Shown here: positions 6,083 to 61,000 of the stretch, one piece after another | Numbering within the stretch: the first letter of the stretch is position 1 | Layout: the number at the start of each line of letters is the position of its first letter | Assembly: GCF_026151205.1 (NCBI RefSeq) | Contig: NC_087077.1 | Span: forward strand, 11,258,983-11,322,982 | DNA: 64,000 nucleotides | Reading direction: 5' to 3' | From: Bolinopsis microptera | Lineage: Eukaryota; Ctenophora; Tentaculata; Lobata; Bolinopsidae | Translations under genes and position numbers: made by a program | The notes under the pieces: generated by a model | Seen by the model: only the letters and a program-made list of their open reading frames with translations | Told to the model about the DNA's origin: nothing | The model's database searches: none

Positions 6083-6108
<26 letters not shown>
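6083..6108. repeat. (AT)n microsatellite
   Basis: Pure AT dinucleotide repeat. It is the first of several that bound the tRNA-like, hammerhead and Penelope segments in this zone. Confidence 0.9.
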
Positions 6109-6239
6109 GCTCGCCTAGTTTACTAAGCTTGAGCACTCTAGGGAATGAATAGATCTACCGTTCAGCTTAAATGCAAAGCTCCTAACTTGTAATGAGTTTG
6201 TAGAGCACTCTGGTACCTATGTAATTCATTCATTATTAA

Positions 6240-6305
6240 GGCCTTGGTGGCCCAGTGGCGCGGCGTAGAGCCAGTAATCGCAAGGTTGCTGGATCGATAC
6301 CCGCC
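6240..6305 (+). repeat. tRNA-like module with RNA polymerase III A and B boxes
   Basis: TGGCCCAGTGG (6248-6258) fits the A-box consensus TRGYNNANNNGG, and GGATCGATACC (6291-6301) fits a B box (GGTTCGANNCC) with one change. They are about 32 bp apart, as in a tRNA. The D-arm-like GGCCCAGTGGCGCGGCG resembles Ser/Leu-type tRNAs, and a 4-of-5-bp T-stem can be drawn around the B box. The anticodon arm does not fold cleanly, so this is tRNA-derived sequence rather than a working tRNA gene. It lies about 30 bp upstream of the hammerhead motif. Confidence 0.65.
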
Positions 6306-6334
6306 ATCGGCAAAACCAACCTTGATGATTTGAG

Positions 6335-6375
6335 CCATACTGATGAGTCCTAATAGGACGAAACACTGTGTCTAT

Positions 6376-6377
<2 letters not shown>
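6335..6377 (+). ncRNA. Complete type I hammerhead ribozyme motif
   Basis: All conserved core elements of a self-cleaving hammerhead are present. CTGATGA (6340-6346) is followed by stem II GTCCT/AGGAC (6347-6351 with 6355-6359), GAA (6360-6362), and a short stem III ACA/TGT (6363-6365 with 6369-6371) with loop CTG. The cleavable C is at 6372. Stem I TATGG (6373-6377) pairs exactly with CCATA (6335-6339), leaving stem I open (type I). Predicted cleavage is between 6372 and 6373. Very short stem III loops are typical of the hammerheads carried by Penelope-like elements and schistosome-type satellite retroelements. Truncated Penelope sequence begins just downstream, after a (TA)n run. Confidence 0.92.
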
Positions 6378-6412
<35 letters not shown>

Positions 6413-7758
6413 AGACACTAACTTCTTAGAGCAGAGAGAGGTCTATACACGTTACCTTCTAGCCCGAGGTTATCATTCCAGTATTATAGAAGATGCCTTT
6501 AACAAATTTAGTGATATAGCTAATAGGAAAAACTTGTATACCCTTAAAGACAAGGATGAGTCGACTGCCTGTTTAATACCCATGGTGATGGATCAAAATC
6601 CAGCACTTCCCAACATGGGGGGCATTATCCATAAGTATAAGCACCTTCTCAACCTTGATCCGGCCCTGAAGAAGCTGGTACGTGCGGACAGTGTATTCGT
6701 GAGTCATCGAAAGAATCAAACTATCGGTGGCATGCTTGTACACAATAAGTACCGTGCCAGTGGAACTTTAAACTGTGATAATGAGAGAGAAACAACTGCA
6801 AGCCAGATCCAGGAACCAGACTCCGAAAGTCTAAGGGCGGTTCCCGGGGCTGTCGACCCAGGGTGCCATGCTTGTGGTAAATGTTATGTTTGTAAGCAAA
6901 ATTTCCTGTCCCCCTGTTCCAATTTTAGTAGTCACCATTCTAAACAAGTTTTCCCTATAACTAAGTATATATCTTGTCAGAGTTATAACCTCATTTATTT
7001 AATGGAGTGTAAGACTTGTAAACAGTCGTATGTCGGTTATACTACCTCAAATCTCCCTAAGAGATTCTCTAACCATAAGAGTCACATAAAGAAAGGTATA
7101 AGAAGTTGTAAATTAGTTAACCATTTTTTAGATATTGATCATGATTTAGATTTTAGTACCATAGCCTGCTATAATTCCTCACTTAGTAAGCACCTTTCTG
7201 TCATTATAGTAGACGCTTTAGTATTTGAGCCTAATATTAGTAAAGCAGACAAAGAAAAGGCTATGGAAGCTAGAGAGGGGTTCTACCAGACCCAATTGAA
7301 AACCCTTGAACGGTTTGGGGGTATGAACACCCTTGATAGTAACCATCTACTTTTTAAATCTGCCGGAGCTTAGTTTTAGTTTTAGTATATTTTGTAGATT
7401 TTATTTAGTTATACCATTATTCCAGAGACGTGCATATTACATTTTTTACTTAAGTATAAATTTTACAGGTTTTCGTTGTGATTTTAAGTGATTTTCCGAG
7501 AATCAGTTATCAGTATTTAGATAAGAGATAAGATAAGAGTACATTTTTAACGGCTTTCAGTTTCTTTTTTAAATTTCAGTTCATCAGATTTTCCCACTGC
7601 TTTTAGTTTGTATTTATTCTCAATTGTATATGATTCGTATTTGTTGTAGTTACTTTAATGATATAATTTCTCAGAATTGATGTAAATAAACGATGCAAAG
7701 ACTTTCGAAGATCTAATCACAACCGCTTTCTTTTATTGTGTAGAAGTCCAGCCATGAA
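6378..7758 (+). mobile_element. Penelope-like element copy 1, 5'-truncated (RT thumb plus GIY-YIG endonuclease)
   Basis: After the (TA)n at 6379-6408 an open frame runs without a stop through 6411-7373; no ATG is needed, since this is a truncated ORF. It starts with the RT thumb-like YLLARGYHSS, continues with LIPMVMDQNPALPNMGGI (the Penelope PLV..NP.LPNI segment), then a Cys-rich CHACGKCYVCKQN linker. The GIY-YIG nuclease follows: LIYLMECKTCKQSYVGYTT, a conserved Arg in LPKRFSNHKSHI, and a downstream Glu in AREGFYQTQL. Most of the RT, including the catalytic Asp motifs, is missing. The 3' untranslated tail runs to the next (AT)n at 7759. The element is a dead copy, but the remaining frame is intact. 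Confidence 0.88.
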
Positions 7759-7780
7759 ATATATATATATATATATATAA
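7759..7780. repeat. (AT)n microsatellite between two Penelope copies
   Basis: AT dinucleotide run that separates the 3' tail of copy 1 from the 5' edge of copy 2. Confidence 0.85.
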
Positions 7781-8583
7781 GCTATCTTGTGGCAAGAGGT
7801 TATAGCAATAGCTTAATTAACCAGGCCTTTAATAAAGTGGAAACCAAGAGCAGGCTCTCCTACTATCAACAACAGAGATATAAGGAGGATGACAGTAGCA
7901 AAGGGAGACTCATTCCCCTTGTAACAGATTTCAACCCAGGTCTCCCCAACATAGGACGGATACTTAACTCCCACAAGCACATCCTCCGTCTAGATCTCGA
8001 GCTTTGCAAGGTGATTGACCCTGATGGTATTTTCACCTCTTTTAGAGGGACAAAAACACTTCATGAGATTCTTATTCATAGCAAACTCCCTCCTGTTGAA
8101 GAGCCAGCTGTAGAAGATCCAGGCCACGCCTCTCCAGACACAGCTGAGGATTCTGATTCTGGAGGTTGCTTCCCTTGTGCTAAGAAATGTGATCTCTGCA
8201 AAAACTTCCTGAAACCATCAACCACAATCGGCAGTTTCCACACCAACCAAGTATTCAGTATCAAAGGACGATTGGACTGTGATACCAAAAATGTTGTGTA
8301 CATAGTTAATGATAATATTTGTAAGTTAAGTTATATAGGATGTACTTCAGACTCTTTAAAGGTTAGATTTAGGAACCATAAATCCCACATTAAAACTCAA
8401 AGAAGGACCTGTGAACTTTCCTGCCATTTTATAGATAATGAGATTTTGCACAATCTTGACCGTACAACCACTAAGTTGTTTACCAGTACTTTAAGTAAGG
8501 ACATTAATGTTTCTATTATAGAGCAAGTTGACGTTGGGAATTACATTTTACCGACATTTGAAGTCAAGGCGTTGTTTTACTGA
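7781..8583 (+). mobile_element. Penelope-like element copy 2, truncated at both ends
   Basis: The frame opens directly after (AT)n with ISYLVARGYSNSLINQAFNK, homologous to the start of copy 1. It continues through LIPLVTDFNPGLPNIGRIL, the Cys cluster CFPCAKKCDLCK, and GIY-YIG motifs (VVYIVNDNICKLSYIGCT, VRFRNHKSHI). It ends at 8583 before the catalytic-Glu region present in copy 1, so the nuclease is incomplete. The two copies differ clearly in sequence, so they are not a recent duplication of one another. Both begin at nearly the same place in the RT thumb. Confidence 0.87.
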
Positions 8584-8598
8584 TAGTTGTGGCTAACT

Positions 8599-8602
<4 letters not shown>

Positions 8603-8836: not shown

Positions 8837-9146
8837 CAGTGGCGTAACTTAGGGCCCCGCAGACCCCGCTGTGCGGGGGGGGGGGGGGGGGGGGGGGGGG
8901 GGGCGCAATTTTCCTGAATTTTAGGTCCAATTTAGCGTTCGGTGGACGCGAAAACAATATTTGGGGTACCTTTTTTGCTTCAGGGGGGGGGGGGGGGGGG
9001 GGGGGGGGCGCAAAAAGCTGTAGGGGGGGCGAGAAAAAAGTACCCGACCTTTTTTTTTAATTTTTTAGGGACACAAAAAATTTAGGGGGGGGGGGGCACT
9101 TTTCGTCACTGAGCGGGGGGCGCCAACAGGCAAAGTTACGCCACTG
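8837..9146. mobile_element. hAT-type MITE with 8-bp target-site duplication and long G-tracts
   Basis: Terminal inverted repeats are CAGTGGCGTAACTT (8837-8850) and AAAGTTACGCCACTG (9132-9146). The flanks TCTACAAT (8829-8836) and TCTACAAG (9147-9154) form an 8-bp target duplication with one mismatch, the hallmark of the hAT superfamily. The interior is non-coding and holds several homopolymer G runs (8875-8903, 8985-9008, 9085-9096), a strong G-quadruplex candidate. Related end fragments occur at 2296-2324 and 53497-53508. Confidence 0.88.
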
Positions 9147-32512: not shown

Positions 32513-33616
32513 CGAGGCTTGTAACTTGTAATATATGTAGTTTGAATGCTCCCATACAACTGTATTTCAAAGTAAGGTGACTGCAATAAACGATTTACAT
32601 TTTACAAGATCACTGCGGAATCTCAAAGGTCCTGGTGGCAAGTACGTGAATAAAACATTCTCATAAAAGTGACAGAATGACAAAATGTATCCACAAGAAT
32701 CATTAGAGCTCGAGGTGCAACAAGATGATTATATAATTTCTCTGGATCTGCTCTGGCAGTTACAGTGAGAACTGAGAGTGTGTAATGTTCATTTTGTCGA
32801 AATGGACGGTTTTGTTACACCGGTCAGGAGTCAGGAGAACAAAAACTACAATTTGAACTGTCATATTATTGACGCTTCTTACCACAGCTAACATTACCAC
32901 GTAAAAAGGAAGCTAACGAATTGCCTGGTCTAACTACAGGACATTAGAGTCGTTACCTTGTAACAAATAAACACAAGGTAACATTATTGGTGACCAATAT
33001 ATTTTACTCTTTAAACTGGTGAACTGTCAACCTTCATTCCTTGAGGAGAGACAAAAGCTATTTGCTACATTTTAGTTATTTATAACACACATATTATGTA
33101 CATGAGGGAAATAATGACTTTCAATAGTTGTGAGAAGGAAGATGATAGTTAGCAACAAAATGGCACCGGGACCGGATATATAATGCATATTAGAAATACT
33201 TATAATAGTTATCCTTCCTTGAAATGGTAATATTTGTTCAACTAAACAGATTGTAATTTATCTATAACTGCTTTTCATGATACGTAGATAAAAATCAATG
33301 TAGTCATTATAAACTTTTACACGCGCCTGCACAAAATTAGGCAACCATTTCATATACAAAACAAACCTCTAGCCAACACAAACATATCACATAGAATTAC
33401 AGCACGGAGATGGAAAGTAAATTGATCATTAGGTTAATCGGTAAACGTTTCCCACTAATGGCGGATTGCACGTGCTTGAAAAATTGTAGTTCGGCAATAG
33501 AGCACCTGTATAGTCATTACAAAATCACGTGCAGAACTCATATATTATCATTTCCACGCTTAACGTGGCTGTATTGATCGTATTTTCAGCTGTTTTTAGT
33601 CAGACCTTATCTTTAC
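32513..33616. other. Gene-free sequence before the LINE insertion
   Basis: No exon or repeat identified between the minisatellite and the LINE target site. Confidence 0.45.
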
Positions 33617-33630
33617 ACAGCCTACAGCAA

Positions 33631-36600
33631 CTCCAACATTCCTCAACTCACGAGGTCATAATTCCATCATTGACCTCACTATTACCAACCAACTGGGGGC
33701 TGAACTGATCAGTAACTGGCACGTTAGTGATCTTTACTCAAACTCCGATCACAGATATATCATGTTCGACATTACTTCTGGTCCCAAAAAAGAACCAAGA
33801 CAAATACGCCTAGTCAAGAACACTGACTGGGCGAAATTTGACGAGATTCTTTACAACAATAATGATCTCCACAACACCTGCGTTAACACACCACACGACA
33901 TTGATCACAAAGTTAACACCATTAATACTGCTCTCCGAGCGGCCTTCGAGGAGGCATGTCCCATTACTTACATCTCCAGCGCTGTCAGAAAACCACCCTG
34001 GCTAACTCGAGAAGTTGAGGAAGCACAGAGGGGTATAAGACGCAAACTCATCACAGCTCGTCGAATCAAAACTGATGCTTCGTGGCTCGCTCTTAGAGAA
34101 AGCAACAAGCAATACAACAAGATCCTGTCCAACTCCCAGCGCAATGCGTGGCGGAAATTCTGCGCAGACACAGAATCGGTTAAGGAATCTGGAAGGATGA
34201 ACAAGATTCTGAAAACCTGTACTGACACCAATAACAAACTTGAAGCCGTTTATAAACCAAATGGCGAACTCACCAAAAACGCAGAGGAGACACTGGAGGT
34301 CATGACACAAACCCACTTCAAGGAGAGTGTTACTGATCCGCCAGCTCCGCCTCTCTGCCCCTTACCCATCTCCACAGACTTACTAGACAAAATCTACAGC
34401 CCTGAAAGAATCGAAAAGGCTCTCCTATCCTTCGATCCCTTGAAGGCTGCAGGACCTGACACTCTAAAACCTATCATATTCCAGAAAGCCTGGGCTCATA
34501 TCAAAGACATAACAAAAAACATTATGACAAAAAACCATGAAACGCAACACATCCCAACTTTGTGGAGGGACTCTCTTGGAATCTTTCTCCCTAAGCCTGG
34601 AAAAACCGACTACAACAAAGCTAAGTCATTTCGAACGATCACTCTTTCGCCTGTGATGTTAAAGTTGCAGGAGAAAGTGATCTTATGGCATATGCAACAT
34701 GACCTCAACATAGCTAATGATATCAACAAACGACAATTCGGCTTTAAAAAGGGCTGCTCCACAGAAGCGGCACTTCATAAAGTTACTCACACCATTGAGC
34801 GCAGAATAGCCAAGAAAGGATATGTCCTAGGTGTCTTTCTAGATATAGAGGGCGCCTTCGATAATGTCTCGTTCAAGGCTATCTCTGAAGCAGTCAAGGC
34901 TACGAAAGTGGACTTGGCTACAGCACAGTGGATCATCAACATGGTAACCAATCGATTCATCACACTAAATCATAAGGATAAGTCGAGAAGGGTACGGATC
35001 AGGCGAGGTTGCCCCCAAGGAGGCATTCTCTCTCCTTTTCTCTGGAACCTGGTAGTCGACGATCTCCTTTCCTTTACCGCAAAAGACATCCCGGGTTACC
35101 TGCAAGCCTTTGCGGATGATCTGTTGTCTCTAGCGGAAGGGGATGATTTAGACATCATCTGGGACCGAACATGCAAAACTATTAAAACGATAGAAAATTG
35201 GTGCAGAACCAAAGAGCTATCTATTAGCGCCCTTAAAACTCAGATAGTCATGTTTACCTGGAATAGTAAGTGGACTCTAAGACCTATAACAGTTGGCAAC
35301 AACATTATAGGTCTTTCCAAGTCTGCTAAATTTCTAGGAGTGACCTTGGACAGCAAACTCAACTTCAATGAACATATCATCAACACCACCAAAAAAGCCA
35401 CGGCATCCCTCATGCAATGTCGAAGAGCTGTCGGCCCCACATGGGGTATGAGCCCCAAAACATGCAAATGGATGTACACGGCTGTCATCCGTCCAATCCT
35501 ATCCTACTGCTGTAGTATATGGATCAGGGCCACTCAAACGGACTATAACGCGAAGAAACTCAAACGTGTTCAGGCATTGGCACTCAGAATGATGTCTGGT
35601 GCCATGCCAAGCACACCTTTTATCGCATTGAATCACCTCACCGACACTTCTGACATCATACTGTTCCTGCAAGGCGAAGCAGCAAAGGGTGCGGCCAGGC
35701 TACAAGCTTATGGCAGCCTCACTCTTGAAACTATCGCTTTCAGGAAGGGAACTATCAAAAATCATACCACTATCAACAAACAATTCATGGCAGACCTCAT
35801 TATCCCACCTAGAGCAACGAGAGACCTAACAACACCAACCATGATGCTGGGACGGCACTTCACCGTCACAACTCCTGGAGCCGATACCACTGAATATAGA
35901 AATTCACTTCAAAACACCATCGACAACATTACCAGTGAAACGATCACCTGCTACACTGACGGGTCACTCACAGACTCAGGATGCGGGGCTGGCTATATCA
36001 TCACAACTGACAACAATAACACCACCCTTGAAGAAAGATCATTCAAGCTCCCTGATTATTGCACTGTTTACCAAACAGAGCTCACCGCCATCATTGAAGC
36101 TTGCAAATATCTCTCTACCTATACCAACACACATATCATCATATGGTCTGACAGTCTCTCATCTATACAAGCTATCTCTGCGCTTTCAACGCGAAGTAGA
36201 ACTACAAGAGACTGTTACGACTCTCTTAATGCACTCGGATCCAACAACACGCTAGAGATACGATGGCTTGCAGCACACATCGGATTGTGGGGGAACGAAA
36301 AAGCAGATGAGCTGGCCAAGCTTGGTACAACCAGTGAATCCACTTTGAAGTGTCCAATTCCACAATCCTACATCAAGCGTCAAATCGACAACAAAGTCAA
36401 CAGACTGAATCAGGAAACTTGGTTAACTGACGGTCCCAGACACACCAAACTGACACTCGGCCACAAGCATGCCAAAATCATCAAAAACCTCAACACTACA
36501 CTCAGCAAAAACAGACAAGATTACAGAACTGCAGTTCACCTCATCACGGGTCACTGCGGCTTAAACAAACACCTTCACACCATTTGCAAATCAAACACCA

Positions 36601-37046
36601 GTGCTTGTCCTATGTGCGGCGACGGAGAGGAAACTGTCTCACACTTCCTTGGACAGTGTCCAGCTATTGCCCAAATTAGAGGTCAATATTTCCAGGACTA
36701 CTACCTCTCTGTCAATGACATATTCGACAACCAACACATCACCACAATTGTCAATTTCGCAAACCGCACCAAACGCTTAATTGTGCCGGAAGAGCTGGAT
36801 CAGACCGGGGTGACTTAAAGTATTAGCTCATATGCTGTCTCGTCTCGTTTTACTTTTCCAAACCCAGCTGGCATTTAAGCGTATCATTTTGACTCATATA
36901 TCATCTTACACCATCCTCCACCAATCACTCTGATTTCACCGGCAACCTTCCCCAAGGTTGCCACACCCCAGAGGTAGGCAGAGCATCTCAATGCTATCCT
37001 CTCGTGGGCTATCTTGGCCCAGCCTCTCTTAAAAAAAAAAAAAAAA
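33631..37046 (+). mobile_element. Young non-LTR retrotransposon (LINE) with RNase H, 5'-truncated, perfect 14-bp TSD
   Basis: The open frame runs from the insertion edge (codons from 33633) to TAA/TGA at 36818 without interruption, over 1060 codons. It begins in the C-terminal end of an APE-like endonuclease (NSRGHNSIIDLTITN, SDLYSNSDHRYI). RT motifs follow: A (FLDIEGAFDN), B (RGCPQGGILSPFL), and active-site FADD near 35115. RNase H has TDGS at about 35955, then TE, SDS and AAHIGLWGNEKADELA. A C-terminal knuckle CPMCGDGEETVSHFLGQC lies near 36610. A 3' UTR and a 17-A tail end at 37046. ACAGCCTACAGCAA at 33617-33630 and 37047-37060 is the target duplication. The layout fits the I/R1/Jockey-group LINEs that carry RNase H. 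Confidence 0.95.
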
Positions 37047-37060
37047 ACAGCCTACAGCAA

Positions 37061-58035: not shown

Positions 58036-61000
58036 ATGAATATTACGTTCAAAAGTATCTGCGACAAAACATGGAAAGTTATCCTGAAGGATAAGCTCTT
58101 CGTGTTTACTGTAGTTGCCGTTATCCTCGGGTTGATTTTGGGTAGGTCTGACTGATTTTAATGTTGGGTAGAGCTTCATTCTCCGCACTGATTGCCAAAC
58201 CATGGTGTATACAATACTATAATACATACACACCATACCATTTTGCAATCAGCCGAGAATTAATCTTAGTAATAATAGTATAATACAGTATTACTATTAA
58301 TTGTATGTACTGTACATAAGTTTATAAGGTAATGTCCAGTAATGACTTTGTGAAATGGTTGTAAAACGTAATATGCTGGAATGTAGAATTATAGAAGGTA
58401 ATATGCCGGAATTTAACACAAACCCCGCAGGTGTGATCATACAGCAGGATCATACTCCTTACTCAACTGACTTACTTGTGGTACTTCTCAAGTTCCCGGG
58501 CGAAATTCTCCTCCGCATGTTAAAATGTATAATACTCCCTCTGGTTGTTGCCAGTGTCATAACGGGACTAGGAGATATAAATGCTAAATCTTGTGGTAAG
58601 CTATTCTTGTGGAAAGATCTTCCGACGTGCATGTATTCCTTCGGTAATCGTCATATTATACGATATATTATATTGCATAATATCATATGCAATATGCATA
58701 TGCAATATGCATATTATGTAATATAATATTATTGATATATTGTGTCATCTTATTGTGGAATCGAATGTTCATTCAGGAAAGATCGGCGGTGTTGCTGTGG
58801 CCTACTACATCTCCACTACAGTAATCGCTGCAATCCTAGGACTCTGCTTGGTTTCCATAATAAGGCCAGGATCAGGAGATCAGAGCGACTTCATCAGCAA
58901 AGACGGAGGTTAGCTCGATGGGCGGGGAGGGGTTCAGACACCAAGAATGATAAATATGACTGGATAGTGTATGATAGATGTAACTGAAACGATAGATATA
59001 GTAAGAACTAAGAATCGAATGACTGGATCTCACACGCTCCAGAAACGTTTTTGTAACATATAATCCAGTACACAAAAGCTAAGTTTCGCTGAACCTTGGT
59101 CCTTGAACCAGCTCTTCATAAGATCCTCTTACTTTTCAGTGACAATAAACGAGAACACTAACACACTCGACACAATCATGGACTTGCTGCGAGCTGCTTT
59201 TCCAGATAACATAGTTGAGGCTACATTCGGTAAGGACGCGACTGAACTCACTGAGATAACCAGGGACGATGGATCAAAATATCTAAAGCGAAACTTACAG
59301 GTCCGTCTTTTTTAACAACAGCACAAGTCATTCGATTTTAAGGGGGCCGGGGGGGGGGGGGTCTTCATCAAAATTCTCTCGAAATCGACTTTATAGTTCT
59401 TTCTGATAGAGGGGAGTGATATCTACCAGCTGCTTTTGGTCCCATAGAAAAATATTGTTCCTAGCCGAAATTATCGCTGGTCAAAGGTCAGCGCTTATGT
59501 GTAATTGTATTGCGCGAGCGATTTTCAATCGCGCGTTCTGAAAATCGAGTCTAAAAATCTATCTTCTCCTACATTTTTTGAGCAATCACCCTCAAACTTT
59601 CAGGATATGTTCTTAGGATCAGTTAGAAGAGAACTCTAGAGCCAGAATTTTGAGATAGGCCTTTAAAGATTTTTAATTTGATTTTGAAATTCTTGGACCT
59701 TGATTTTTAGAGGTCAAAAATTTTCAAAATCGAATTAAAAATCTTTAAAGGCCTATCTCAAAATTCTGGCTCTAGAGTTCTCTTCTAACTGATCCTAAGA
59801 ACATATCCTGAAAGTTTGAGGGTGATTGCTCAAAAAATGTAGGAGAAGATAGATTTTTAGACTCGATTTTCAGAACGCGCGATTGAAAATCGCTCGCGCA
59901 ATACAATTACACATAAGCGCTGACCTTTGACCAGCGATAATTTCGGCTAGGAACAATATTTTTCTATGGGACCAAAAGCAGCTGGTAGATATCACTCCCC
60001 TCTATCAGAAACAACTATAAAGTCGATTTCGAGAGAATTTTGATGAAGACCCCCCCCCCCCCCCCCCGGCCCCCTTAATAATACAATATTATAATAGTTA
60101 GTGATCTTAGTAAAATTTTAGTTGTGGTCTGTTTTCTGCCAAAATCCCGAATTTACTATTCAAATAGAATCCTATTTCGATTACTCTTTGAATAGTAAAT
60201 CATCTTAAGAACGAGATGATCTTTCTACTTTTCTAACAGCAATTTGTTTGCACACAGTTCAAATCCGGAATAAACATGATAGGAGTGATAGTGTTCGCAA
60301 TTGTAGTCGGGGTGATTATGTCTCTGTACCCCGAGGAATCTGCCCCGCTTATGAAGGTTAGTTGTTAGGCACGTGGCGGGCATTTCATAATTCCTGGGTA
60401 TGTTTTGAAGATATAACTTGTTGCAATACAAATTTAACGGTTCATTATTGTTTTAAACATTAGTTTAATTCTGGGGTTATTGACCTTATTTATAAGGTTA
60501 ACCACCCCAGTATTGAACCATTTTTATTCTTTAAATGCAAAAAGTGATTAATTACCAACTAATTGCCCAGGTGGTCCAGGCAGTTAATGACGTGACAATG
60601 AGACTAGTCACTCTTATACTGTGGTATTCTCCCATTGGTATATTCTTTCTTATCGCTGGACAGTTTGCTGGGGTAAGTACTTTAAAGATATCTCTGAATG
60701 GTAAACATTTGCCCATCATTCAACTTTATTACAGTGAACAGTATGGTTAGTTTTGAGTCAATCTTTCTACGATGGGGTCGTGAATCCAGACTAATTTTAA
60801 TCAAATTTAGGTTGAAAACTTTGGAGAGATGGTTGCACAATTGGGATTGTATGTTGTGACAGTGCTCGTTGGAATCGCTATTCACTTCTTCATTATTCTT
60901 CCTAGTATTTTCTTCGCTTTTACCCGCAGCAATCCGATCCCATATTACTACAACATGTTACCAGGTTAGTTTTTATACCGCAGTTTAATATTTTCAAATT

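Follow-up and report, generated by a model that had tools for sequence, protein, structure and literature searches.

The window, a 64,000-nucleotide (64-kb) stretch of the Bolinopsis microptera genome, contains a small non-coding multicopy retroelement that carries a complete hammerhead ribozyme and pol III-like boxes and is probably mobilised in trans by a neighbouring Penelope family. The element belongs to the metazoan (non-LTR) retrozymes, a known class, and its family is a real, recently mobile one. The reading that we favour, with a probability of about 0.72, is that of a non-autonomous non-LTR retrozyme family that would be transcribed by pol III, processed by its hammerhead and mobilised by a Penelope element at (TA)n tracts. 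The first-pass annotation of this DNA had suggested a small retroelement that may be mobilised in trans, and the multicopy units, the TA targets and a fixed 3' junction like that of the Penelope family support this. It had also suggested an undescribed SINE-like family; the family does appear to be undescribed, as no published report of it was found in the open-licence literature, but its class is known. The kind of element is thus not new, and what is new is the mechanistic evidence.

The features of the locus are as follows.

6083-6108, no strand: (TA)n tract flanking the insertion at 5' (target), read directly.
6109-6378, plus strand: complete retrozyme unit of 270 bp, with at least 77 matches in its own genome.
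6248-6258, plus strand: A box TGGCCCAGTGG of a predicted type 2 pol III promoter, 0 mismatches to TRGCNNAGYGG.
6291-6301, plus strand: predicted B-like box GGATCGATACC, 1 mismatch to GGTTCRANNCC.
6333-6379, plus strand: type I hammerhead ribozyme (Rfam RF00163 Hammerhead_1, 35.9 bits).
6335-6339/6373-6377, plus strand: hammerhead stem I.
6347-6351/6355-6359, plus strand: hammerhead stem II.
6363-6365/6369-6371, plus strand: hammerhead stem III, 3 bp.
6372/6373, plus strand: predicted self-cleavage site, after GTC, from the hammerhead alignment.
6378/6379, plus strand: 3' end of the insertion, some 6 nt downstream of the cut site, and inferred start of reverse transcription (51 of 56 ends lie at unit position 267-275).
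6379-6407, no strand: (TA)n tract between the retrozyme and Penelope copy 1, read directly.
6408-7759, plus strand: Penelope-like element 1, 5'-truncated, with part of an ORF containing a Cys-rich motif and a GIY-YIG domain (Pfam, E 4e-7) up to 7373, and the 3' junction CATGAAA at 7759.
7760-7779, no strand: (TA)n tract, read directly.
7780-8602, plus strand: Penelope-like element 2, 5'-truncated (tblastn, about 38% amino acid identity to copy 1).

The ribozyme and the pol III-type boxes

The A box, the B box and the hammerhead core that had been read from the letters in the first-pass annotation are all present in the sequence. In the Rfam search of the 64-kb window, the hammerhead exceeded the Hammerhead_1 cut-off of 34 bits (E 2.6e-5) and was the sole ribozyme among eight matches up to E 1, in agreement with the earlier description of a complete type I hammerhead, although its stem III has just 3 bp. 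The stretch 6313-6377, which covers the hammerhead and a part upstream of it, also gave 22.9 bits to the RAGATH-1 hammerhead, whose cut-off is 56.3 bits. The hammerhead fold was not favoured by nearest-neighbour folding of one strand (-6.8 kcal/mol vs -9.8 kcal/mol for the lowest other fold), and in two-strand folding the double hammerhead (-25.3) was likewise exceeded by another fold (-28.0), in a method that leaves the non-canonical contacts of the hammerhead core unscored. The RNA of the whole unit is strongly self-paired, with a circular fold of -84.6 kcal/mol and a z score of -3.5 against 100 shuffles.

Genome-wide, at least 69 Hammerhead_1 matches were found with Rfam, 67 of them over the cut-off, among the best 74 of 35,380 candidates scored. 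All 69 coincide with copies of the retrozyme family, 55 by place and 14 in further stretches that were fetched. No match was obtained among the best-scored candidates of 14 control genomes, a search in which divergent hammerheads may be missed. Within the family, 42 of 2,923 hammerhead cells were variant, compared with 194 of 3,676 in the preceding stretch (64 units). With one unit per locus (35 loci), the values were 26 of 1,601 (1.6%) and 119 of 2,004 (5.9%), respectively; the p values of these comparisons are indicative only, since neither columns nor copies are independent. A chance hammerhead was rejected on the basis of the Rfam score, the copies and the low variability. Self-cleavage of the retrozyme hammerhead is predicted to occur after GTC, at 6372/6373.

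Type 2 pol III promoters have the A-box consensus TRGCNNAGYGG and the B-box consensus GGTTCRANNCC. The unit matches 11 of 11 and 10 of 11 of these positions, respectively, with both boxes upstream of the hammerhead and in the order and spacing of a pol III-driven tRNA-type SINE. An A box with 0 mismatches followed at 25-70 bp by a B box with at most 1 occurred in 1 of 20,000 dinucleotide shuffles of the unit, both strands included, by a criterion fixed after the sequence had been seen. The A box has 0 mismatches in 43 of 55 copies, and the B box has at most 1 mismatch in 64 of 73 (0 in eight, exactly 1 in 56). Much of the variation falls on degenerate consensus positions (R and N), but the third base of the B box is A in most copies. 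Over 74 units, the conservation of the two boxes (0.934 and 0.932) was no higher than that of the rest of the unit outside the hammerhead (0.948), and the idea that they are the most conserved part of the unit was rejected. The conservation of the boxes among copies, which had been proposed as a check, therefore holds insofar as most copies retain them, but not above the level of the other non-ribozyme sequence. Because the boxes are kept but are no better conserved than the remainder, we regard a working pol III promoter as likely.

The promoter had been called tRNA-like. The retention of the A and B boxes in most copies is consistent with this, but no full tRNA was recognised: ARAGORN found none, and Rfam had no tRNA hit in 6225-6380 up to E 10. 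A search with just the tRNA-like part (6235-6328) returned at least 40 matches (the best 40 of 69 candidates), all in known places of the retrozyme family, and no hammerhead-free SINE with the same head was seen among them. The pol III stop signal TTTT is present in 5 of 40 complete units, and therefore read-through of arrays is possible in most.

Genome copies and insertion junctions

The search with 6109-6378 proposed in the first-pass annotation returned at least 77 matches in the 264.65-Mb genome (40 of 76 candidates scored), many of them in tandem, and the element is not single-copy. Copies lie on all 13 large contigs. The period of the arrays is 277-278 bp, and their units are joined by a TAAATAT linker. 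Among the 56 insertions or arrays examined, in which the interrupted array L056 makes up two entries, 19 have 2-7 tandem units and 37 have one. According to a simple flank test, L034/L035 and L106/L107 are apparent duplicates of one insertion each, and L031 (two entries), L047 (two), L050 (two), L036/L048 and L112/L113 also appeared related by eye; because several entries look like duplicates or relatives, the independent events are fewer than 56. As regards the multi-unit entries, 17 of 19 start with a partial unit and 16 of 19 stop at a fixed 3' point, the exceptions being L033, L051, both halves of L056 and L057.

The mean identity of complete units was 95.4% within a locus (43 pairs) vs 91.5% between loci (737 pairs). 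It amounted to 99.6-100% in four of the seven arrays with at least two complete units (L025, L056, L057 and L058), to 94-98% in L059 and to 76-88% in L033. Since near-identity also extends between L056, L057 and L058 (99.3-99.6%), these three may share one young source, and identity within an array is weak evidence for a single circle as the template. The five complete units of L055 comprise three types, arranged 5' to 3' as A1 A1 B B A2, a mixture most readily accounted for if the enzyme jumped between templates or copied a multimer that was itself mixed. The L056 array (G000:C1:12165834-12169738) is split by another element, roughly 3 kb long and bearing inverted ends, which was apparently inserted at a TA. 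At L054 (3439-3873), a retrozyme copy is apparently inserted in the TA tail of an earlier, truncated copy.

The ribozyme cut site corresponds to unit position 264/265. The match reaches position 270 in 47 of the 56 entries, 269 in three and 267 in one; the query of this tally stops at 270, so that longer copies would also show 270. Past this position, the continuation of the unit (TAAATAT...) is shared for no more than 3 nt by 46 of these 47 copies, which is what TA-rich target DNA gives anyway, and for 5 nt by L105. Because the copies share few bases past 270, the 3' end is given as the range 267-275, in which 51 of the 56 insertions or arrays end; its exact base is ambiguous, as TA follows in unit and target alike. 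The remaining five end at 119, 177, 179, 261 and 266; the copy that stops at 261 is interrupted by the insertion of a different element. The copies L115 and L045, which end at 267 and 266 beside the cut site, might come from cleaved linear RNA, but two cases are too few to argue from. The 5' ends are scattered over 38 positions (BLAST starts, 56 entries); seven are assigned to position 1, but five of them (L037, both L038, L054 and L056) actually start from a few to about 25 bases upstream.

The insertions lie in TA-rich DNA. TATA or ATAT occurs in the first 14 nt of 50 of the 51 fixed-point 3' flanks, vs 12% of the 14-mers of the window, and at least 90% A+T over 20 nt was found in 28 of 56 5' flanks and 38 of 51 3' flanks, vs 1.9% of its 20-mers. 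The target-duplication score was at least 12 in 12 of 37 flank pairs and lower in the other 25, compared with at least 12 in 7.3% of 1,332 mismatched pairs (Mann-Whitney p 0.005), in a setting where TA-rich flanks mimic duplications. This test was based on 37 of 43 entries, six being left out for an unusual 3' end, a short flank or the L056 continuation.

As 51 of the 56 insertions end at unit position 267-275, the copied RNA was continuous across the ribozyme cut site in nearly all copies. A continuous template, together with a fixed 3' end and scattered 5' ends, means that reverse transcription began internally. It also means that the template was a circle or an uncut multimer, and it argues against a cleaved linear monomer. 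The starting point seems to be the AUAAAUAU patch right after stem I. The other A/T runs of at least 6 in the unit are TTAAAT and ATTATTAA, and the 51 do not end there.

The candidate driver, the proposed mechanism and its alternatives

The first-pass annotation had noted (TA)n bounds and adjoining Penelope remnants, and this was borne out: (TA)n lies on both sides of the retrozyme unit, which is followed by two 5'-truncated Penelope-like copies in the same orientation, each bounded by (TA)n. For element 2, Pfam alone gave no match. The Penelope family neighbouring the retrozyme is young: at least 126 matches were found in the same genome (125 of 831 candidates scored), at least 29 of them 99-100% identical across 311 or more of the 318 aa, with a further subfamily at about 86%. 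Among three long copies, L061 carries a pair of identical 266-bp pseudo-LTRs and an open frame of 1,043 aa, and L062 a pair, likewise identical, of 400 bp and an open frame of 1,004 aa; Pfam recognises GIY-YIG in both. L060 has an open frame of 1,013 aa without a pseudo-LTR pair. The RT-type motifs AMG and RDDI were recognised in the ORF by eye; neither Pfam nor a search of PDB sequences gave an RT match, and the latter gave no match at all. Between these motifs and GIY-YIG lies the Cys-rich CHACGKCYVC. A Cys-rich domain between RT and endonuclease is described as a mark of Neptune-like elements (PMC3846280), with which the candidate driver shares GIY-YIG, the putative RT-type motifs, the Cys-rich motif and the pseudo-LTRs. 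It differs from other Penelope elements, in which hammerheads are reported, as none was found by Rfam up to E 5 in the three copies L060-L062, a search that minimal variants may escape.

The 3' junction CATGAAA followed by a TA tract was present in 19 of 20 sampled near-complete Penelope copies, and the twentieth stretch does not include the end. A TA-rich tract was seen by eye at or near the start in 16 of the 20 5' stretches; in L087, L089 and L096, Penelope sequence continues upstream with no junction in the stretch, and L102 could not be placed. In L061 and L062, AAATATATATA stands at the junction of pseudo-LTR and body, where copies end. The retrozyme and the Penelope element have no detectable sequence in common, and the alignment of the pseudo-LTR/body junction to the unit gave no similarity that stands out; common to both are an A/U patch at the start of reverse transcription and the target. 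Both elements have also hit the same host repeats. In raw counts that take no account of the genome-wide frequency of the repeats, one cluster holds 9 retrozyme and 3 Penelope loci; a larger single-linkage cluster (28 and 7 loci) is heterogeneous, with end pieces of Penelope element 2 among its members, and such pieces adjoin several retrozymes. The order seen in the window, with the retrozyme first, then a TA tract and then a Penelope piece truncated at its 5' end, recurs at L031, L044 and L042, by shared target or by chance. A long 99% palindrome adjoins the full-length Penelope copy at L061 (5188-6047 in reverse-complement coordinates).

In the mechanism that we propose, pol III would transcribe genomic copies from the internal A and B boxes, the hammerheads would cut the multimeric RNA into 277-nt units, and a host ligase may close these into circles. 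To judge from the copies, the GIY-YIG endonuclease/RT of the co-resident Penelope-like element would nick a (TA)n tract and use the resulting TA end as the primer, with reverse transcription starting at the AUAAAUAU patch immediately beyond the cut site. The enzyme would then proceed upstream, in many cases past a full turn or unit, and stop at variable points, leaving a truncated first unit followed by complete ones. A broader generalisation, to which we would give somewhat less than even odds, is that metazoan retrozymes spread by target-primed rolling-circle reverse transcription, in which a Penelope enzyme would copy a pol III-made, ribozyme-processed circle, over a single turn or several, from an AU patch beside the religated cut site, with nicked (TA)n as the primer. 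The driver itself could be free of hammerheads, and the same process of turning and truncating would account for the pseudo-LTRs of Penelope elements. The purified Penelope protein of the anole starts reverse transcription inside its template and cuts and prefers AT-rich DNA (PMC11167929), but its starting point is not homologous to the cut DNA, unlike in the retrozyme model proposed here.

The alternative that survives best retains the element and its Penelope driver but replaces the circle by a linear uncut multimeric transcript, on which several units derived from a source array would be copied after internal initiation, the hammerhead acting elsewhere in the life cycle. We consider it a serious possibility, yet clearly below even odds. 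In vitro, unprocessed RNA was the main substrate of anole Penelope, and hammerhead mutants left insertion unchanged (PMC11167929). Moreover, a mixed transcript could have been the template of the mixed array L055, and a single source array could have given rise to the near-identical arrays at three loci. On the other side, most invertebrate retrozyme hammerheads are described as cutting efficiently, with circles accumulating in coral, mussel and axolotl (PMC7229834).

It is unlikely that the unit is an ordinary tRNA-derived SINE whose mobilisation depends on a genomic LINE, for instance that at 33600-36815. LINE-driven SINEs usually carry tRNA-type boxes, as does this unit. The 15-bp duplications of Nematostella retrozymes have been compared with LINEs (PMC4918200). 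However, the window copy of this LINE terminates in poly(A), and its flank is not TA. All 39 further copies scored (40 of 824 candidates) end within that poly(A) stretch as well, at query position 440-451. The retrozyme lacks poly(A), and its end, like that of the Penelope element, adjoins TA-rich DNA. On account of its poly(A) end, the window LINE, as the one LINE family examined, was rejected as the driver.

Still less probable is an origin of the unit from a hammerhead-encoding Penelope-like element, either as a fragment or as a solo pseudo-LTR. Minimal type I hammerheads are known from Penelope pseudo-LTRs, as reported in a 2020 review (PMC7761336), and Penelope copies adjoin the unit in the window, at L031 and at L044. 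This origin was nevertheless rejected, as the pseudo-LTRs of L061 and L062 have no match to the unit, L060 has none, the three copies gave no Rfam hammerhead, and the scored hammerhead matches all fall on retrozyme-family copies. Finally, the tandem 277-bp units would be explained if this were an ordinary satellite DNA that unequal crossing-over has spread and whose hammerhead is a relic or arose by chance. This reading is the least credible of all and was rejected, because the fixed 3' and scattered 5' ends are the opposite of arrays with a random phase at either end, a single unit makes up 37 of 56 entries, copies occur on all 13 large contigs and the hammerhead is less variable than its flank.

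Relation to known elements and other features of the window

The family resembles the metazoan non-LTR retrozymes of coral, mussel and axolotl, as these are described in PMC7229834 and PMC7761336, in its type I hammerhead, its repeat length (150-450 bp in those animals), its single and tandem copies, the lack of any LTR seen and the strongly self-paired RNA. The retrozymes of the same three animals are reported to form circles (PMC7229834). Target duplications of more than 4 bp are given for the known elements (PMC7229834, PMC7761336), and here such duplications may be present, in sites whose TA-rich sequence can mimic them. Coral and mussel genomes are described as having thousands of copies, and our figure of at least 77 is a lower bound, so that the numbers are not comparable. 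Plant LTR retrozymes likewise have a hammerhead, are non-autonomous and are modelled with a circular RNA, but in the account of PMC4918200 they have type III hammerheads, LTRs and 4-bp duplications, in contrast to the type I hammerhead and the absence of a visible LTR in the present family.

Penelope has been regarded as a strong candidate driver of retrozymes owing to shared hammerheads, tandem copies and co-existence (PMC7229834), and the 2020 review names Penelope elements as likely candidates (PMC7761336). That review leaves the driver of animal retrozymes open, finds no motif that would reveal it and describes retrozymes as seemingly without promoters. The family presented here bears on this question: it has A and B boxes, and its TA targets and fixed junction point to Penelope. 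It offers a candidate promoter together with a signature, namely a 3' junction that is internal, fixed and close to the cut site, and TA-tract targets in common with a young Penelope family. A single protein, a single RNA and a single DNA target would therefore suffice for a direct test of both the driver and the circular-template model.

A pol III promoter was reportedly described for the Schistosoma Sm-alpha repeat by Ferbeyre in 1998. Judging from descriptions, Sm-alpha combines a tRNA-type part and a type I hammerhead in a short repeat, as does the present unit; it is characterised as SINE-like with a type I hammerhead (PMC8490949, PMC6155905). The schistosome repeats are stated to contain a tRNA, and those of Nematostella to have 15-bp duplications (PMC4918200), whereas no intact tRNA was recognised in the unit here. 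In the open-licence literature, no paper was found that treats ctenophores and the hammerhead ribozyme jointly. If the rolling-circle reading is true, the ctenophore host would put retrozymes in a lineage that may have been the first to branch off among the animals.

Several further features were recorded in the window. The LINE at 33600-36815 and 37031-37048, with RT, RNase H and a poly(A) end, represents a second young retroelement, the 39 other scored copies (of 824 candidates) being 99-100% identical over its end. A near-perfect palindrome of 258 bp at 59577-59834 forms a MITE-like hairpin. On both strands it gave Rfam matches below the cut-offs, to MIR7533, MIR2606 and others, and it is hardly a microRNA. 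At 8878-9090, several long poly-G tracts lie within a short stretch.
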